61,795 bases of DNA from a virus. Within the stretch, counting starts at the first letter, position 1. The number at the start of each line of letters is the position of its first letter. A program made the translations under genes and the position numbers. Positions 35,572 through 49,767 of the stretch are shown piece by piece. The DNA lies in IMG/VR virus record IMGVR_UViG_3300031825_000009, positions 1-61,795 of that record; one strand, written 5' to 3'. The notes beneath the pieces are model-generated. The model saw only the letters and a list, made by a program, of their open reading frames with translations. It had not been told where the DNA came from and made no database searches.

Positions 35572-35642
35572 GACGTCCCCCCCTTCGCGACCACCGTCAC
35601 GCTACTCGCGAGCCGGCCCTCAGCAAAGCGGGAAGCACCGTG

Positions 35643-37613
35643 ATGCGCGCCGCGACGGACCTTTTCGGGGCGATCGCCGGGCCGCGGCCAGCGCCGGGCG
35701 ACGAGCTCATCGTCGACTCGTTCGCCGGCGGCGGCGGGGCCTCGACCGGGATCGAGATGGCGCTCGGCCGCTCGCCCGACGTCGCCATCAACCACGATTC
35801 CTGGGCGCTCCGGGTCCACGCTGCGAACCACCCGGCAACCTGGCACCTCTCGAAGAACGTCTGGCAGGTCGACCCGCTCGAGGCCGTGCGCGGCCATGCC
35901 GTCGGCCTCGCCTGGTTCTCGCCGGACTGCAAGCACTTCTCGAAGGCGAAGGGCGGCAAGCCGGTGCGCAAGAGCGTGCGCGATCTCGCCTGGGTGGTGG
36001 TGCTGTGGGCGAAGCGGGTCCGGCCGCGCGTCATCATCCTGGAAAACGTCGAGGAATTCCGCGACTGGGGGCCGATCACCGCCGAGGGGCGGCCCTGCCC
36101 GGAGCGCAAGGGCGAGACCTTCGCGCGGTGGGTGGGGGAATTGAAGCGGCTCGGCTACCGGGTCGAGCACCGCGAGTTGCGCGCCTGCGACTACGGCGCG
36201 CCGACGACGCGCAAGCGGCTGTTCCTGATCGCCCGGCGCGACGGGCGGCCGATCGTCTGGCCGGCGGCGACGCACGGGCGGCCCGACGACCCGGAGGTGC
36301 TGGCCGGCCGCAAGCGGCCGTGGCGGACCGCGGCGGAAATCATCGACTGGTCGCTGCCGTGCCCCTCGATCTTCGCCTCGAGCGCGGAGATCAGGGCGGC
36401 GCTCGGGGTCACCGCCAAGCGGCCGCTCGCCGAGGCGACCATGGCGCGAATTGCGAAAGGCGTGTGGCGCTACGTGGTGACGGCGAAGCGGCCGTTCATC
36501 GTGCCGGTGACGCACGCCGGCGACCTGCGCGTGCACTCGGCCGACGAGCCGCTGCGGACGATCACCACGGCCATGCGCGGTGAGCTGGCGGTGGTGGCGC
36601 CGGCGCTCGCCGCGCCGTTCGCGAGCTACGGCCAGCAGGGCGGCGCCTCGCGGCCGCTCGACGCGCCGCACTCGACGATCACGGCGAGCCGGAAGGATAC
36701 GAACGGGCTCGTCGTGCCCACTCTCGTCCCGGTCGATCTCGTCGCCGGGGCGATGGTGCAGACGGGCTATGGCGAGCGCAAAGGGCAGGCCCCGCGGGCG
36801 CTCGACGTCGAGGCGCCGATCGGCACGCAGGTCGCCGGGGCGACGAAGCACGCCGTGGTCGCGGCGCACCTCTCGATCATGCGCAACTCGGACAAGCCAT
36901 TCACGGCGGCCGACGAGCCGATGCACACGATCACGGCCGAAGGGGCACGCCCGGCCCTCGTCTCGGCCTTCCTCGCGCAGCATAACACCGGCGTCGTCGG
37001 GCACGAGGCCGGCAAGCCGCTCTCGACGATCACCTCGGGCGGGATGCACGGCGTCTCGCAGCAGGCGATCGTGGCGGCGCACCTGCAGCGGCAGTTCTCG
37101 CGCTCGGTCGGGGCGGAGGCCGGCGAGCCGCTGCGCACCGATTCCGAGCGCGGCAAGGATGCCGTGGTCGCGGCGCACCTCCTCAACCTGCACGGCGGCG
37201 ACCGGCGCGACCGCGCCGCCGACGAGCCGGTGCCGACCATCGCCGCCGGCGGCAACCACGTCGCGGAAGTCCGCGCCTTCCTGATGCGCTACTACGGCGA
37301 GGGCGGGCAGTGGTCGGCCTGCGACGAGCCGGTGCCGACGGACACGGTGAAGCCGCGCTTCGGGCTCGTGACCGTTTCCGGCGTCGAGTACCAGATCGTC
37401 GACATCGGCATGCGGATGCTGACGCCGCGCGAGCGCTTCGACGCGCAGGGTTTTCCGCCCGGCTACATCATCGACACGACGCTCGACGGCAAGCCGATCA
37501 CCGCGGAGATCCAGGGCCGGCTCGTCGGCAACTCGGTCTGCCCGCCGATGGCCGCCGCCCTCGTCGCCGCCAACTGCGCCGACCTCGCGGTCGCGCAGGA
37601 GGCGGCGGAGTGA
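35643..37613 (+). CDS. C5-cytosine DNA methyltransferase with repeat-rich target domain
   Basis: A 656-residue methyltransferase. Motif I DSFAGGGGASTGIEMALG binds AdoMet. Motif IV is FSPDCKHFSKAKGG, with the catalytic Cys in an S-P-D-C variant of the usual P-C. Motif VI is ENVEEF, motif VIII YGAPTTRKRLFLIARRD, and motifs IX-X lie in MRMLTPRERFDAQGFPPGY and GRLVGNSVCPPMA. Between VIII and IX, residues about 295-565 contain eight spaced copies of a (A/C)DEPxxTIT-like motif (ADEPLRTIT, DAPHSTIT, ADEPMHTIT, GKPLSTIT, GEPLRTDS, ADEPVPTIA, DEPVPTDT and a weaker one). This gives an unusually long, repetitive recognition region. It likely protects phage DNA from host restriction. A GTG just before the ATG is possible. 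Confidence 0.93.
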   Translation: MRAATDLFGAIAGPRPAPGDELIVDSFAGGGGASTGIEMALGRSPDVAINHDSWALRVHAANHPATWHLSKNVWQVDPLEAVRGHAVGLAWFSPDCKHFSKAKGGKPVRKSVRDLAWVVVLWAKRVRPRVIILENVEEFRDWGPITAEGRPCPERKGETFARWVGELKRLGYRVEHRELRACDYGAPTTRKRLFLIARRDGRPIVWPAATHGRPDDPEVLAGRKRPWRTAAEIIDWSLPCPSIFASSAEIRAALGVTAKRPLAEATMARIAKGVWRYVVTAKRPFIVPVTHAGDLRVHSADEPLRTITTAMRGELAVVAPALAAPFASYGQQGGASRPLDAPHSTITASRKDTNGLVVPTLVPVDLVAGAMVQTGYGERKGQAPRALDVEAPIGTQVAGATKHAVVAAHLSIMRNSDKPFTAADEPMHTITAEGARPALVSAFLAQHNTGVVGHEAGKPLSTITSGGMHGVSQQAIVAAHLQRQFSRSVGAEAGEPLRTDSERGKDAVVAAHLLNLHGGDRRDRAADEPVPTIAAGGNHVAEVRAFLMRYYGEGGQWSACDEPVPTDTVKPRFGLVTVSGVEYQIVDIGMRMLTPRERFDAQGFPPGYIIDTTLDGKPITAEIQGRLVGNSVCPPMAAALVAANCADLAVAQEAAE

Positions 37614-39505: not shown

Positions 39506-39558
39506 ATATCGGACAAAAATGTCCGCCCGTCAAGCGTGATCGGCGCTTTTTGTCCGAT
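39506..39558. promoter_or_regulatory. Candidate hicAB operator
   Basis: ATCGGACAAAAATGTCCG contains the palindrome CGGACA-AAAA-TGTCCG at 39510-39525, and the same ATCGGACAAAAA recurs in reverse as TTTTTGTCCGAT ending at 39558. They lie just upstream of hicA, where the HicB HTH should bind. The second site is close to the primase start on the other strand, so both directions could be controlled. Confidence 0.7.
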
Positions 39559-39576
39559 TTTTTCGGAGCGCACGGC

Positions 39577-40647
39577 ATGACCTCGCGCGATGACGGCGAC
39601 GTCATCCGCGGGCGGCTCGTCGACGAGCTCGAGCGGCTGCTCGACGCCTATTGCCCTGGGTGGCTCGAGGTGCGCGGCGAAGGCTATCTCGCGCCGAAGA
39701 GCCGGGGCGACCTCGGCTCCTGGCGGGTGACGCTCGACGGGCAGCGGCGCGGGCTCTGGTATCGCCACAGCCAAGGCCTCGGCGGCGACGTGCTGGCGCT
39801 TCTCGCCTATTGCCTGTCCGGCAGCGTCAAGGTGGACGCGCGCACCTTCGAGGAGGCGCGGCGCTTCCTCGGCATCGAGGGGCGGCCGGACCCGGCCGAG
39901 GCCGAGAGGCGCCGGCGCGAGGCGGAGGCGCGGCGCGCCGCGCACGCCCGCGACGCCGCCGAGGCGCGGCTGCGCGAGACGATGAAGGCGCGCGACATCT
40001 GGCGCGCCGCCCGGCCGGCGGCGGGGACGCCGGTCGCCCGGTGGCTCGCCGCGCGCGGGCTCGACCTCGCCGCCGTGCCGCCGACGCTGCGGTTTCACCC
40101 GCGCCTGCCCTACTGGTGGTCGCCGCCGCGCGCCAAAGGCGAGGCGCCGCCGCGGCCCGTCGTCATCCACGACGGCCCGGCGATGGTCGGCCTCGTGACG
40201 CACGGGGAGACGGGGCGGCTCGTCGGGGTGCACCTGACGTGGCTCGCCGAGGATGGGCGGGCGAAGGCGGCGATCACCGCGCCGGACGGCAGGCCGCAGC
40301 TCGCCCGCAAGATGCGCGGCGCGCCGCGGGGCGGACACGTGCGCCTGGCGCCGCCGGCGGCGGCGATCGTGGTGGCCGAGGGGGTCGAGACCGCGCTCGC
40401 CGTGATGGCGGCGACGGGGCTGCCGACCTTCGCCGCGCTCTCGCTCGGCAACCTCGCCGCGCCCCTACCGGCCGGCGTCGGCGCCGTAGTGCTGGCGGTC
40501 GATGCCGACGAGGCCGACCCGGCCCGCGCCGAGACGACGAAGCGCGCCGCGGCCGAGGCGCACGCCGCCCGCGGGCTCGCCGTGAGCATCGCCCGGCCGC
40601 CGGCGGGGCACGACTTCAACTCGCTCTATCGAGGCGGGACGCGATGA
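39577..40647 (+). CDS. Toprim-domain DNA primase
   Basis: A 356-residue phage primase. The N-terminal part has a degenerate zinc/primase-like region (LRQGSWRVTL-type beta strands, GLGGDVLALLAYCLSG). A charged helix precedes PAAGTPVARWLAARGLDLAA and TLRFHPRLPYWW (DUF7146-like). The Toprim domain is VVAEGVETALAVMAATGLPT (catalytic Glu) and VVLAVDADEADPA (D-x-D). It ends with the GHDFNSLYRGG typical of this group. ATG 39577 is preceded by CGGAG. Its TGA overlaps the helicase ATG (ATGA), so both are co-translated for phage replication. Confidence 0.9.
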   Translation: MTSRDDGDVIRGRLVDELERLLDAYCPGWLEVRGEGYLAPKSRGDLGSWRVTLDGQRRGLWYRHSQGLGGDVLALLAYCLSGSVKVDARTFEEARRFLGIEGRPDPAEAERRRREAEARRAAHARDAAEARLRETMKARDIWRAARPAAGTPVARWLAARGLDLAAVPPTLRFHPRLPYWWSPPRAKGEAPPRPVVIHDGPAMVGLVTHGETGRLVGVHLTWLAEDGRAKAAITAPDGRPQLARKMRGAPRGGHVRLAPPAAAIVVAEGVETALAVMAATGLPTFAALSLGNLAAPLPAGVGAVVLAVDADEADPARAETTKRAAAEAHAARGLAVSIARPPAGHDFNSLYRGGTR

Positions 40648-42458
40648 CGGACCACGACGACCTCGCCGGACCCGACGCCGTGCGCGACGCCATCGCGGCG
40701 GCCGAGCCCTACGCCGCGCGGCCCGCCCGCCCCGCAGCCCCGGCCGACCTCGGCGGCGCCTTCGCCGACGACGAGGCCGAGGGTAGCGAGGCGCCCTCGG
40801 AAACGCTGGGGGGCGCCGGGGGGCGCGCGGGCGCGATCGACATGGCGGTCGTGGGGGAGTGCGCGGCGCTCGACCACTCCGACACCGACAACGGGCGGCG
40901 GCTCATCGCGCACTTCGGCGCGGATCTGCGCGTCTTCCAGACCTCCGGCGAGCGCAATGCGGGCTTCGTGGTGTGGGCCGGAACGCACTGGAACCTCGAC
41001 ACCGGCAAGGACGCCGCCTTCGCGATGGCACAACGGGTGGGCGGGCTCATCGCGCTCGAGGCCGACCACCTCGCCCAGACGCCGGCCGAGGCGCGGGCGA
41101 TCGACGAGGGCGAGGCGGCCGCCGAGGCGCTCGCCCGGATGGAACCGCGGCGGGCCGAGTGGTCGGATGCCGACAAGGCGACGGCGCGGCGGCTGGAGCG
41201 CGCCATCGACGCCGCCGATGCCGCCCGCGACGCGCTCGACAAGCGGAAGGCGGCGCGGCGGAAATTCGGCGTCTCCTCGAAGAACGCGGCGCGGCTGAAG
41301 GCGATGCTGGAATGCGCCGCGCCGATGCTGCTGACGCCGCCGGAGGCCTTCAACCGCGACCCGCTGGTGGTGGCGACGCGCACGCACACCCTGCGCTTCC
41401 GCCGCACGCCCGACCTCGAATGCCCGGATCCCGACGGGCTGCGCTGGACGGCCGAGTGCATCGCGAGCGACGGGCACCGGCGCGACGACCTCGTGACGCG
41501 CATCGTCGACCTCGCTTTTGACGACGCGGCGGCGTGCCCGCTCTTCGACGCCTTCCTGCTGCGCTTCCTGCCTGTCGATTCGGTCCGCCGCTTCGTGCAG
41601 GTGGTGGCGGGGCTCGGGCTCCTCGGCTCGACGGTGCAGAAGCTCGTCTTCCACTACGGCGAGGGGGCGAACGGCAAGAGCGTGTTCCTGCAGACGATCG
41701 CCAACGTGCTCGGCGCGCTCGCCTCGACGCTCTCGCCCGACGCCATCACCGGATCGAACCAGCGGCAGGGCAACCAGGCGAGCCCGGAGCTCGCCCGGCT
41801 CTTCGGCAAGCGCTTCGTCCGCGTCTCGGAACTGCCGGAGGGCATTCCGCTGCAGGAGGAACTGGTGAAGCGCCTTTCGGGCGGCGAGGACATTCCCGTC
41901 CGAAACCTCTTCCAGGGCATCTTCGACTTCCACCCGGAATTCATCGCCCACATGTCGGGCAACGGCTATCCGCGTATCGAGGGCACGAACAACGGCATCT
42001 GGCGCCGTATGGCGGTGGTGCACTGGCCGGTGACGCTGGCCGAGGACGAACAGAAGCCCTTCGACGAGGTGATCGACGGCTTCCGCCCGGAATATTCCGG
42101 CATCCTCAACTGGCTGGTGCAGGGCGCGCTGATCTACCTCGCCGAGGGGCTCTACGTGCCGCCGGAGGTGAAGGCGGCGACGAAGGAATACCGCGACGAG
42201 ATGGACCCGATCGGGCCGTTCTGCGAGGCGTGCGTCGAGGTCTTTCCCGAAGGCATCGTCCAGGCGCGCGAGATGTATGAAGCCTATGTGTCGTGGGCGA
42301 TGGCGAACGGCGTCAAGCCTATTCACGAGACGCGGTTCGGAAAGACGATGAAGACACGATTCCGGCGCGACGATGAGCGCATCCGCCGCTACCACGACTG
42401 CCGATTGCACGACGTGCCGCTGCGACCGGACACACCCCGCAACCCCCGGGAGGATTGA
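40644..42458 (+). CDS. D5/P4-type primase-helicase, SF3 ATPase
   Basis: A 604-residue replicative helicase. An N-terminal region (GRRLIAHFGADLRVFQTSGE, NAGFVVWAGTHWNLDTGKDA) resembles D5 N-terminal domains. The SF3 ATPase core has Walker A YGEGANGKSVFLQTIANVLG, RLFGKRFVRVSELPEG (B region), GGEDIPVRNLFQGIFDFHPE (C) and MSGNGYPRIEGTNNGIWRRM. The end (IVQAREMYEAYVSWAMANGV, KPIHETRFGKTMKTRF) is a winged-helix domain. ATG overlaps the primase stop. Works with the upstream primase at the phage origin. Confidence 0.93.
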   Translation: MTDHDDLAGPDAVRDAIAAAEPYAARPARPAAPADLGGAFADDEAEGSEAPSETLGGAGGRAGAIDMAVVGECAALDHSDTDNGRRLIAHFGADLRVFQTSGERNAGFVVWAGTHWNLDTGKDAAFAMAQRVGGLIALEADHLAQTPAEARAIDEGEAAAEALARMEPRRAEWSDADKATARRLERAIDAADAARDALDKRKAARRKFGVSSKNAARLKAMLECAAPMLLTPPEAFNRDPLVVATRTHTLRFRRTPDLECPDPDGLRWTAECIASDGHRRDDLVTRIVDLAFDDAAACPLFDAFLLRFLPVDSVRRFVQVVAGLGLLGSTVQKLVFHYGEGANGKSVFLQTIANVLGALASTLSPDAITGSNQRQGNQASPELARLFGKRFVRVSELPEGIPLQEELVKRLSGGEDIPVRNLFQGIFDFHPEFIAHMSGNGYPRIEGTNNGIWRRMAVVHWPVTLAEDEQKPFDEVIDGFRPEYSGILNWLVQGALIYLAEGLYVPPEVKAATKEYRDEMDPIGPFCEACVEVFPEGIVQAREMYEAYVSWAMANGVKPIHETRFGKTMKTRFRRDDERIRRYHDCRLHDVPLRPDTPRNPRED

Positions 42459-42474
42459 CCGGCGACTGCGGCCG

Positions 42475-42785
42475 ACCCTCGCGCCCGCTGCGGTTGTCGA
42501 GGGTCGCGAGGGTTCGCGAGGGTTTGAGGCAAACCCTCGCGCGACGAAACAGCGAGCCGGGCCAATGGCTTCAGGACGGCTTGCGAGGGTTGCGAGGGTT
42601 TTCGCGCCCGTACGCATGGCGAATGGGGTCACGGGGCCGAAGGACGATCGAATTCCAAGTCTTCATGTGTATAGACAGTCAAACCCTCGCAACCCTCGCA
42701 GAGGATATGCAGATGATTGATATCGATAGGGAAAATGACCGCGAGGGTTCGTTCGTGGACCCTCGCGGACCCTCGCGACCCTCGC
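42475..42785. repeat. Array of twelve GCGAGGGT octamers in both orientations
   Basis: Exact copies of GCGAGGGT or its complement start at 42475, 42506, 42516, 42533, 42583, 42592, 42683, 42692, 42741, 42759, 42769 and 42778, with one near copy at 42497. TGCGAGGGTTGCGAGGGTT at 42582-42600 is a perfect 19-bp inverted match to 42682-42700. The array fills the gap after the helicase and runs into the first codons of the NusG-like gene. It could be a replication origin (iterons) or an RNA/DNA site for the NusG-like protein. Confidence 0.9.
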
Positions 42786-43492
42786 AGGACGCCCGCGGCG
42801 TGCGCCTCGTCGACCCGGACAGCGTCGACCCGGCGATCAAGGCGTGGTGGTTCGGCCGCCTCGCCGAGGCGGCGGGGCGGCGGGCGGCCGAGCGGGCGCG
42901 CGAGGCGGCGGGCGACGGCCGCGGCGCGTGGCATCTGGTGCAGACCGTGCCGCGCGGCGAGGTGCTGGCCGCCGGGGCGCTCGGCGAGGCGGGGTTCGGC
43001 GTGTTCCTGCCGCGCTACCGGGCGAGCGTGCCGGTGGGCCGCTTGGTGCCCGGGCGGACGCGGCGGGTGATCGCCGTCGAGCGGGCGCTGTTCGCGGGCT
43101 ATCTCTTCGTCCGCGTCGAGCCGGGACAGGGCTGCTACGGCGTCGGCAAGGCGCGCGGCGTGGCGCGAATCGTGGCGACGGGGGAGGGGCCGGCTGTCGT
43201 TCCCGACGTGGTGGTCGGGGCGCTCATGGCCGAGGCGGACGCGGCGGGGCTGATGGCGCCGCCGCCGGACGGGCCGAGCGGCGCCGTGCTCTGGGCGGTC
43301 GGCGAGGTGGTCCGGATGATCGGCGGTCCGCTCGCCGGGTTCGAAGGGCCGGTGACGGCTGTTGACGAACGGGGCGCGGTGCGGGTAGATCTTGCGCTGT
43401 TCGGTCGCGCGGTTGCGGTGACCGCGTCTGCTGAAGATGTCGCCAAGGTGACGTCTTCGCCTCGGAAGAGACCGAGGCAGAAGCGACGGTAG
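42713..43492 (+). CDS. NusG-like transcription antitermination protein
   Basis: A 259-residue NusG paralogue. The N-terminal domain has GAWHLVQTVPRGEVLAAGAL, GFGVFLPRYRASVPVGRLV, ALFAGYLFVRVEPGQGCYGV (the NusG LFPGYLFV signature) and VARIVATGEGPAVVPDVVV. The C-terminal KOW domain is GEVVRMIGGPLAGFEGPVTA. ATG 42713 has GAGG eight bases before; ATG 42707 is also possible. The first 30 residues are partly encoded by octamer-repeat DNA. It precedes a terminator and the whole late operon, so a Q-like antitermination role for late genes is likely by position. Confidence 0.85.
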   Translation: MIDIDRENDREGSFVDPRGPSRPSQDARGVRLVDPDSVDPAIKAWWFGRLAEAAGRRAAERAREAAGDGRGAWHLVQTVPRGEVLAAGALGEAGFGVFLPRYRASVPVGRLVPGRTRRVIAVERALFAGYLFVRVEPGQGCYGVGKARGVARIVATGEGPAVVPDVVVGALMAEADAAGLMAPPPDGPSGAVLWAVGEVVRMIGGPLAGFEGPVTAVDERGAVRVDLALFGRAVAVTASAEDVAKVTSSPRKRPRQKRR

Positions 43493-43847
43493 GGGCGGCG
43501 ACGGTGACCTCCGGTCCGCCCCAGCAACGCCGGGTGCAATAGACCGGCCTTCCTCCGGGGTGCGATGCACTCGGAGTGCGGCGCTAGAAATCATCATCAT
43601 CGACTGACCGAGCCCGGCCGGCCCAGCCCGCCGGGCTTTCGCGTATCAAAGGACATGGGGCCGCCGCATCGGGGCGGGCGCCCTCGGCCGCCGCGGCGAT
43701 GCGCGACCGCGCGGCGGGCGTCTCGCCCCCGCCCCTACCCTCACGGGTCCTTCCCCCACCCCTGCCCGAATGCGGGCAAACACAGGGCGGGGGTTTTCTG
43801 GTTTTGCAGCCATTTCCGCGGGTTGACGCGGTTGACGAGGTGGACGG
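43493..43847 (+). other. Late leader region, no supported gene
   Basis: A 355-bp stretch between the NusG-like gene and terminase. A plus-strand frame at 43565-43858 is Arg/Pro-rich and not protein-like. The region contains a weak hairpin (AGCCC-GCC-GGGCT), the terminator at 43753-43805 and the GGTTGACG repeats at its end. A cos site is expected here. Confidence 0.5.
43753..43805 (+). terminator. Terminator-like hairpin upstream of the late operon
   Basis: CCCCCACCC pairs with GGGCGGGGG around an inner perfect hairpin TGCCCG-AATG-CGGGCA, followed by TTTTCTGGTTTT. It lies between the antiterminator-like gene and terminase, where a Q-type antiterminator would act. Confidence 0.7.
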
Positions 43848-43861
43848 ATGTCGGTTGACGC
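43821..43861. repeat. Tandem GGTTGACGM nonamers at the terminase start (possible cosB/pac)
   Basis: GGTTGACGC, GGTTGACGA and GGTGGACGG run end to end at 43821-43847, directly before the ATG, and GGTTGACGC occurs again at 43853-43861. Nu1-type small terminases bind repeated sites next to their own gene in lambda, so these are candidate terminase-binding sites. Confidence 0.65.
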
Positions 43862-44453
43862 GGCCGGTGCGCCGCTGATGCTCTCGGTCTCCGAGGTCGC
43901 CCGGATGAAGGGCGTCTCGAAGGAGGCCGTGTCGAAGCGGGTGAAGCGCTTCGAGGCGCAGGGCCTCATCGCGACGCGGACCGAGCGCGGCCAGAAGCTG
44001 GTGCCGCTCGCCGAGTACGACCGGCTCATCGATGAGACGACCGACTTCGCCAAGCTGCGGGGCGAGACGGCGCCGGCCGCCGCACGGGCGCCGGCGCGGT
44101 CGACCGACGAGAACCCGGTCTACGTCCAAGAGCAGGCCCGCAAGCTCCGGTACGAAGCGGACCTGAAGCAGATCGCGCTCAAGCGCCAGCTGGGCGAGAT
44201 CGTCGCCATCGCGGACGTCGAGCGGGCGATGGCGCGGTGCGCGGAGGTGATCGTCCGGCGCATCGATCGGCTGCCGGGGCTCGCCGACGAGCTCGCGGGC
44301 GCCGTGGGCAAGGGCGGCGTCGACGCCGCGCGGGCATGGCTGCGGGACACCGCACGGGATCTCCGGCAGGCGCTCGCCGATTCGATGCGCCTCCTCGAGG
44401 GCGAGGAGGCGGCCGCCGGCCAGGGCGATGACAGCGACGAGGAAGACGCATGA
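43848..44453 (+). CDS. Terminase small subunit (Nu1-like)
   Basis: A 201-residue protein. The N-terminal winged HTH (LMLSVSEVARMKGVSKEAVS, KRVKRFEAQGLI) fits DNA recognition at cos. QARKLRYEADLKQIALKRQL then GEIVAIADVERAMARCAEVI is the Nu1-family helical region, and the end is acidic. It starts the late operon; its TGA overlaps the large subunit ATG (ATGA). Confidence 0.88.
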   Translation: MSVDAAGAPLMLSVSEVARMKGVSKEAVSKRVKRFEAQGLIATRTERGQKLVPLAEYDRLIDETTDFAKLRGETAPAAARAPARSTDENPVYVQEQARKLRYEADLKQIALKRQLGEIVAIADVERAMARCAEVIVRRIDRLPGLADELAGAVGKGGVDAARAWLRDTARDLRQALADSMRLLEGEEAAAGQGDDSDEEDA

Positions 44454-48279: not shown

Positions 48280-49767
48280 ATGTCGCGCGACGCATCGGCG
48301 GCCGCCCGGTTCTTCGGGCGGGCGGTCCTGCTCGACCCGCAGCACGGCCGGGACCAGGTCGCGGCGCTCCTCGCCCGCTGCAGCGAGCGCGAGCCGGTGC
48401 TCGGCCGTCTCGGCCGGATGCTCGGTCTCGCGCGTGCCGGCGACGACGGCGAGCGGCCGGACCGCCCCGCTGCCTGGACGCCGCCCTATCTCCGCGCCCG
48501 GTCGACGGTCCGCCCGTCGGGGCTCGTCGTCGCCGAGGGTGTCGCCGTCCTCGACGTGCGCGGGCCGCTGCTCGACCGCGCGCTCGTCTGGTGGGACGGC
48601 GAGGTGTGGTGCGACGGCTACGACCGCGTTTCCGCCGCGCTCGACGAGGCACGGCTCGACCCGGTGATCCGGGCCGTGCTCATCCGATTCGACACGCCCG
48701 GCGGCCTCGTCGACGGACTCGAAGGGTGCGCCCGATCCATCCGCGCCGTCTCGGCGGCGGGGAAGCCGGTTCACGGCTACGTGGGCGCCATGGCGCTCTC
48801 GGCCGGCTATTGGCTCGCCGCGGCCTGCGACCGGATCGTCTCGTCGCCGGAAGGTCTCACCGGCTCGGTCGGCGTCATCATCCTGCACATGGAGATGAGC
48901 GGGTGGCTCGCCGAGACGGGGATCACCGTCACGCCGATCACCTTCGGCGCGAAGAAGGCGGACGGCTCGCCCTATGCGCCGCTCTCCGAGACGGCCCGCA
49001 CCGACATGCAGGGGATGGTCGACGAGCTCGGCCTTCGCTTCGCGGGCCACGTGGCCGGTCGGCGCGGCCTCGCCGTCGCCGACGTGGTCGCGCTTCAGGC
49101 CGGCGTGCTGATGCCGAGCGGCGCCACGCCGGCCGCCCTCATCGACGAAGTCGCCTTCGAGGACGAGGCCTTCGCCTCGCTCCTCTCGACCCTCGGGACG
49201 AGCGGTTCCGAGGACGCATCCCCCCCAGCACAGGAGGCCGATATGGGCCTGAGGGACAAGATCACGGCCATTCTTTCCGGCCGCGGCTCCGCCAACGCGA
49301 AGCTCAAGCGCCTCGGCGCGGCTGTGGCCGAGGACGAAGATGAGAAGACCGCCGCCGGCGCCGAGGACGACGAGGACGAAACGTCGGCCGAGGGCGAGGA
49401 GGACAAGCCGGTGGACGACGAGGAGACCGCCGCCGAGGGCGAGGACGACAAGCCCGAGGACGAATACGAGGACGGGCCGGCGGCCGGCGCCAGCCTGAAG
49501 ACGGCGAAGGCGATCCTCGACCTGCCCTCGGCGAAGGGACGCGAGAAGCTCGCCCGCGAGCTGGCGTTCGCCGGCTTGTCGGTGAAGACGGCCGACCGGC
49601 TGCTCTCGGCGGCGCCGAAGGCCGGCGGCCGCCTGACCGAGGCGATGGCGGGGCGCGACGTGAATCCCGGCAGCGGCGCCGGCGCGGGCGGCAAGGGCGA
49701 CACCGCCGACCGCATGGCGTCGAACTTCGCGGCCGCCGGCGGCTCCACGCGGCTCCGCAAGGCCTGA
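48280..49767 (+). CDS. S49 head-maturation protease with C-terminal scaffold region (gpC-like)
   Basis: A 495-residue protein. The protease domain (about residues 75-300) is SppA/S49-like: LIRFDTPGGLVDGLEGCARS, KPVHGYVGAMALSAGYWLAA with the catalytic Ser, and DRIVSSPEGLTGSVGVIILH. After about residue 320 it becomes acidic and scaffold-like with repeats of Glu/Asp (DDEDETSAEGEEDKPVDDEE) and a helical end. In lambda the same arrangement gives protease gpC and scaffold Nu3 from one frame. Confidence 0.93.
   Translation: MSRDASAAARFFGRAVLLDPQHGRDQVAALLARCSEREPVLGRLGRMLGLARAGDDGERPDRPAAWTPPYLRARSTVRPSGLVVAEGVAVLDVRGPLLDRALVWWDGEVWCDGYDRVSAALDEARLDPVIRAVLIRFDTPGGLVDGLEGCARSIRAVSAAGKPVHGYVGAMALSAGYWLAAACDRIVSSPEGLTGSVGVIILHMEMSGWLAETGITVTPITFGAKKADGSPYAPLSETARTDMQGMVDELGLRFAGHVAGRRGLAVADVVALQAGVLMPSGATPAALIDEVAFEDEAFASLLSTLGTSGSEDASPPAQEADMGLRDKITAILSGRGSANAKLKRLGAAVAEDEDEKTAAGAEDDEDETSAEGEEDKPVDDEETAAEGEDDKPEDEYEDGPAAGASLKTAKAILDLPSAKGREKLARELAFAGLSVKTADRLLSAAPKAGGRLTEAMAGRDVNPGSGAGAGGKGDTADRMASNFAAAGGSTRLRKA
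49243..49767 (+). CDS. Nested in-frame scaffold protein (Nu3-like)
   Basis: An internal ATG at 49243 in the protease frame is preceded by GGAGG at five bases and opens MGLRDKITAILSGRGSANAK, giving a 174-residue acidic scaffold. This mirrors the lambda C/Nu3 nested arrangement. The strong ribosome site is the evidence for separate expression. Confidence 0.75.
   Translation: MGLRDKITAILSGRGSANAKLKRLGAAVAEDEDEKTAAGAEDDEDETSAEGEEDKPVDDEETAAEGEDDKPEDEYEDGPAAGASLKTAKAILDLPSAKGREKLARELAFAGLSVKTADRLLSAAPKAGGRLTEAMAGRDVNPGSGAGAGGKGDTADRMASNFAAAGGSTRLRKA

Follow-up and report, generated by a model that had tools for sequence, protein, structure and literature searches.

A mirror-symmetric octamer array behind a D5-type helicase gene as the probable replication origin of a tailed phage

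In PMC7581432 (citing Ubeda 2007), Rep of the staphylococcal islands SaPIbov1 and SaPI5 is described as a self-loading helicase whose C-terminal domain recognises short iterons directly 3' of its own gene, and its binding as two hexamers is put forward there as a proposal. The isolated C-terminal domain of Cch2, a D5-type helicase of SCCmec, binds repeats just 3' of its gene as well (PMC7581432). P4 alpha, as covered in PMC4234260 (citing Ziegelin and Lanka 1995 and Yeo 2002), has a Toprim primase and a D5-type helicase, and its C-terminal winged helix binds the origin repeats. In pRN1 and in the Bordetella phages BIP-1 and BPP-1, the origin lies 3' of a rep gene whose product is an SF3 helicase ending in a winged helix; in pRN1, 166 bp downstream of the rep gene are needed, and in BIP-1 no origin iterons were found and a stem-loop was proposed instead (PMC4234260). 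The Sfi21 origin is mentioned in a later paper (PMC6356513).

Here we set beside these systems an array of short repeats in a window of 61.8 kb, by which we mean the whole stretch of viral DNA that was analysed. Very probably, this array serves the tailed phage that carries it as replication origin and is read by the phage's own helicase.

Layout of the array and the genes upstream

The octamer GCGAGGGT occurs in 12 exact copies at 42475-42785, with both strands represented (Table 1), and an additional site at 42498 (CGAGGGT) keeps seven of the eight bases, lacking only the first, a G. The window as a whole holds 19 copies where 5.5 would be expected; the array accounts for 12 of them. No other 8-mer in the 61.8 kb matches 12 copies per 350 bp, and the clustering is far above chance. 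The runner-up, with eight copies, lies at 49.2 kb in a stretch of low complexity. Inside the head maturation protease gene (48280-49767), CGAGGACG is repeated eight times in direct orientation at 49158-49474, which is probably an acidic coding stretch of low complexity. Direct neighbours in the array are spaced 9-10 bp apart, and the first octamer begins 17 bp beyond the helicase stop codon (42456-42458). A perfect inverted repeat is formed by two 19-bp arms, TGCGAGGGTTGCGAGGGTT (42582-42600) and AACCCTCGCAACCCTCGCA (42682-42700), whose starts lie 100 bp apart. The twelve exact copies in mixed orientation, their spacing, the inverted repeat and the distance from the helicase had all been given in the original prediction and are confirmed here, with the imperfect 13th site coming in addition.

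What that prediction missed is the mirror layout of the array. From left to right, the sites run one minus, three plus, one minus and two plus up to the centre, and then two minus, one plus and three minus beyond it. About a dyad centre at ~42641, sites lie at 46, 55, 104, 122, 132 and 141 bp on the left and at 46, 55, 103, 122, 132 and 141 bp on the right, with one further outer site unpaired. Mirror pairing within 2 bp holds for 12 of the 13 sites, which was reached in none of 2000 shuffles of the site gaps and orientations (maximum, 10). The GC content of the phage is ~0.69, and the central spacer and the AT-rich stretch to its right both lie below this value (Table 1). Cumulative GC skew makes no turn at the array and is uninformative as origin evidence.

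Upstream of the array lie genes for a primase and a helicase. A profile search with the helicase put the SaPI5-type enzyme 7ola in first place. An AF2 model of the C-terminal half of the helicase (312 residues, 58 sequences, mean pLDDT 92.4) was compared with known structures using VIA-align, and the top matches were all D5-type helicases: ASFV PrimPol (Z 27.0), the SaPI5 primase-helicase 7ola (Z 24.2), poxvirus D5/E5 (Z ~21) and NrS-1 (Z 18). A C-terminal winged helix is indicated by a Pox_D5 match at the C-terminus and by a helix-helix-hairpin in the model. Elsewhere in the window, the ORF at 35640-37613 (657 aa) encodes a C-5 cytosine methyltransferase in which ~290 positions of the phrog_116 methyltransferase profile are spread over 634 residues. 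A second family matches the same ORF in four stretches apart from one another, and the ORF probably contains large inserts or several target-recognition domains.

Table 1. Coordinates of the array, its parts and the neighbouring genes in the window
Feature	Position	Strand	Support
Gene for the Toprim primase, not fused to the helicase; 3' end overlaps the helicase ATG	39550..40647	+	Pfam Toprim_3 1e-13, DUF7146 2e-26; PHROG 510 DNA primase 1.5e-54
Helicase gene (D5-type SF3, C-terminal winged helix); product proposed as the initiator that binds the origin	40644..42458	+	Pfam D5_N 1.7e-11, Pox_D5 1.4e-7; PHROG 1156 8.6e-125
Winged-helix elements: recognition helix ETRFGKTMK, wing hairpin RRDDERIRRY	42325..42410 (approximate bounds)	+	Alignment, model secondary structure
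Outermost left iteron, reversed, without mirror partner	42475..42482	-	
Left outer iteron triplet, first copy without its first G	42498..42523	+	
Left reversed single iteron	42533..42540	-	
Left inner iteron pair, 9 bp apart	42583..42599	+	
Central spacer around the dyad centre (~42641)	42600..42682	.	GC 0.54
Right inner iteron pair	42683..42699	-	
AT-rich stretch, proposed DNA-unwinding element	42700..42740	.	GC 0.39; AT peak of relatives also at ~+80 from the dyad centre
Right reversed single iteron	42741..42748	+	
Right outer iteron triplet	42759..42785	-	
NusG-like gene, GTG start more likely (longer ORF from ATG 42707); neighbour, outside the origin system	42800..43492	+	PF02357 1.9e-8, KOW 3.5e-5

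Arrays and C-termini of related helicases

Searches with the helicase and with a helicase alignment yielded ~100 loci, of which 82 could be scored for how often a single octamer recurs exactly within the first 600 bp beyond the helicase stop. At least four copies are present at 68 of these 82 loci and at least five at 51. By comparison, shuffles of the same 600-bp DNA gave a mean of ~2 and a maximum of 4, which was also the upper limit in coding DNA taken from each locus as a control. Three copies or fewer were counted at 14 of the 82 loci, some of them decayed (e.g., L021) and some degenerate. L021 (3290-3700), a decaying origin, is a Bradyrhizobium prophage remnant in which only two or three iterons are left behind the helicase gene. 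Among the loci are alphaproteobacterial phages and prophages (Bosea, Bradyrhizobium), a Schleiferilactobacillus prophage and phages related to those of Listeria; Bosea prophages with an array of this kind are represented by L022 and L024. The original prediction named absence of the array from close relatives that share these genes as a refutation; this does not hold, as most helicase relatives have an array. No clear array follows the helicase in the phiC31 early region (L115), Planctomyces pPL62-4 (L112) or a Thermaerobacter plasmid (L110), and when phage records were searched at the DNA level for sequences related to the array, the matches did not rise above chance.

The octamer varies by group and includes GCGAGGGT, TGGAGGGT, TGCAGGGT, CACAGGGT, GCGATAGT, GCGACAGT, GCACCAGT, TGACAGTT, GGGAGGAT, GGTGTATA and TATGACGG, among others. 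Most loci of the alphaproteobacterial type have sites ~44, 53, 102 (reversed), 119, 130 and 139 bp either side of the centre, and these dyad positions match to a few bp between genomes despite the different octamers. Some relatives (e.g., L034 and L061) have one more direct copy in place of the reversed site at 102. The central 80 bp are more AT-rich than the flanks at all 38 loci with a resolved dyad. Genes 3' of the array vary among relatives and include NusG-like, VRR-NUC, Bro-N and other genes.

Circular replicons carry such arrays as well. On a 46-kb circular plasmid of Methylobacterium currus, the array directly follows a helicase of the same family. In a 57-kb circular phage-plasmid of Mesorhizobium, which has the same helicase family, and in Rhizobium phage RR1-A, a smaller array lies behind a Bro-N or antirepressor gene; thus, the array is separable from the helicase gene and can persist. 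The array lies farther downstream of the helicase at L027, L107 and L111. At two of these, L107 (13450-14571, GCGACAGT) and L111 (4665-6891, TGGACAGC), a Bro-N or antirepressor gene parts the array from the helicase, which suggests insertion between initiator and origin.

Which part of the helicase goes with the octamer? The octamers of 48 loci were compared with two parts of the helicase, and their similarity rises with C-terminal identity (rho 0.40, matched in 0 of 2000 permutations) more strongly than with identity of the ATPase part (0.25). In partial Mantel correlations on the same loci, which remove kinship in part, the value is 0.32 for the C-terminus given the ATPase and 0.04 for the converse. 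A group related to the Listeria phages PSA and B025 (L087, L088, L091, L097 and L098) shows the change at close range. The DNA of the ATPase part is 75-100% identical in this group, mostly >88% in the closest pairs; identity is ~50% over the last ~25 helicase codons and the first iterons, and it is high again in the next gene. Within the origin of these phages, the spacer DNA is largely conserved, and all iterons have been switched together (GGTGTATAGTT, AGGGCAGGTT, CAGTGCAGGTT, GGTGGAGGGTT).

The wing hairpin pairs with the octamer in several groups. R-[IVL]-R is found in the wing at most GCGAGGGT loci, including the window (ERIRRY), GNVY goes with TGGAGGGT, GR[IM]V with GCGATAGT, and GR(A)V or GRTN with GCACCAGT; L071 and L080 are exceptions. 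L030 and L034, whose ATPase parts are 98% identical, differ in their octamers, GCACCAGT and GCGATAGT, respectively. The C-terminal tail correlates with the octamer at least as well as the wing does. The recognition helix was also considered as the main specificity element and was rejected, as its identity adds nothing in a rank regression to which wing and tail do contribute, with kinship as a confounder. A wing-to-iteron code, for which kinship is partly controlled, is a candidate hypothesis. It is tempting to go further and propose that one 12-site dyad plan serves phages of several phyla, that the wing hairpin sets the variable iteron centre by a readable code, and that wing and iterons change jointly on a conserved backbone and so create new replication-specificity groups. 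We offer this wider proposal tentatively, and rate its chances as slightly short of even.

Readings of the array

The original prediction offered two readings of the array. One of them, iterons of a replication origin beside the primase and helicase, is strongly supported by the comparison of the 82 helicase loci. The array, the dyad, the AT-rich element, the helicase with its winged helix, their co-occurrence across the class and the covariation of octamer and C-terminus are read from sequence; binding, the two hexamers, melting and bidirectional replication are what we infer. The D5/SF3 AAA+ helicase encoded immediately upstream would serve as the phage's own initiator, with its C-terminal winged helix reading the octamer, whose core is TTGCGAGGGTT. 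With neighbouring iterons one helical turn apart, helicase subunits would gather along the same side of the double helix, and the two mirror half-arrays would assemble two opposed hexamers around the central spacer. Once the hexamers had assembled, the adjoining AT-rich stretch would open, the separately encoded Toprim primase would prime, and replication would proceed in both directions.

It is also conceivable, though very unlikely in our judgement, that the array is mainly an operator through which the helicase or another regulator controls downstream genes and does not initiate replication. The array does sit between genes, and autoregulation is frequent among initiators. However, an operator would need far less than a fixed dyad of twelve sites and an AT-rich element, the genes downstream differ between relatives, and the partner with which the octamer covaries is the helicase.

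The other reading of the original prediction concerned the NusG-like protein, which was to load on the array, as DNA or RNA, for antitermination or to control its own synthesis. The array is directly upstream of the NusG-like gene, and it was said to enter it. This last point is doubtful. An ORF from ATG 42707 does overlap the array, but the evidence favours the GTG at 42800 as the start: similarity to the NusG of virus record L006, the only close relative, begins at GVRLVDP, where this GTG sits, AGGA lies ~9 bases upstream of it, and GC3 is 0.55 over codons 42707-42739 versus 0.90 in the body of the gene. The stretch at 42707-42799 is open and of low GC3 and has no similarity to the L006 relative. 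With the start at 42800 the whole array is intergenic, as is probably the case, and gene callers would likely give the NusG-like gene a false N-terminal extension over the origin.

The role assigned to the NusG-like protein is unsupported. A NusG-domain protein was detected in only two of 34 array-bearing virus records (the window and L006) and in none of the other 32, some of the records being fragments. The NusG of L006 is 73% identical to that of the window, yet its helicase is only ~39% identical and its iterons are GGGAGGAT; because L006 keeps NusG with another helicase and other iterons, the array does not follow the NusG gene. A search of phage records at 1e-5 returned no relatives of the NusG-like protein, and 42000-44000 has no Rfam match at E values up to 0.1. 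Moreover, the helical spacing and tandem same-strand copies fit binding to double-stranded DNA. Altogether, we regard a NusG-loading or antitermination element as highly improbable, although the array may overlap the 5' end of the gene. A packaging (pac or cos) site is scarcely credible: the terminase genes do lie ~1 kb downstream (small subunit start, 43848; large subunit start, 44450), but the octamer tracks the helicase C-terminus, and in Latilactobacillus phage TMW 1.591 P1, where a like array comes after the primase, the following 2.9 kb contain no annotated terminase.

Comparison with described origins

Reading such arrays as replication origins would assign an origin and its likely reader protein, from sequence alone, to many unannotated phages, prophages and phage-plasmids, and it predicts which phages and plasmids compete for, or cross-use, one origin. 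Natural sets of close phages that differ chiefly in the helicase wing and the iterons make the recognition rules of self-loading SF3 helicases, to which the poxvirus and ASFV primase-helicases belong, directly testable.

The locus resembles the SaPI origins, as they are described in PMC7581432, in having iterons 3' of the helicase gene, and 7ola is a close structural match to the helicase. The systems differ in that the SaPI5 enzyme has a fused AEP-type primase, whereas the Toprim protein is separate here, and in that the SaPI systems are staphylococcal islands, whereas here the iteron is GC-rich and the genome is that of a tailed phage. Cch2 of SCCmec has three 5-bp iterons, compared to the twelve octamers in a dyad found here. 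With P4, the locus shares a D5-type helicase, a C-terminal winged helix, a Toprim primase and origin repeats. Primase and helicase are one protein in P4; that fusion is absent here, where they are encoded by two ORFs (39550-40647 and 40644-42458). P4 also has a second, distant iteron site, crr, whereas no second octamer cluster lies elsewhere in this window, which may be an incomplete contig.

BPP-1 (L116, NC_005357), which is nearly identical to BIP-1, carries four exact copies of AACGAGGCAA at ~1100-1215, downstream of the primase. They form two mirrored pairs, 9 bp apart within each pair, that match the inner pairs of the window array; by this inner-pair geometry, BPP-1 has a reduced form of the array.

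In all, the locus appears to belong to the iteron origins of self-loading D5/SF3 helicases, of the SaPI Rep and P4 alpha type, as it combines an adjacent helicase, a winged helix, downstream iterons, opposed iteron sets with an AT-rich element and iterons matched to the C-terminus. It probably works as the SaPI and P4 origins do. Iteron origins of self-loading helicases are already known; what is new here is the conserved 12-site layout and the candidate wing-to-iteron code.
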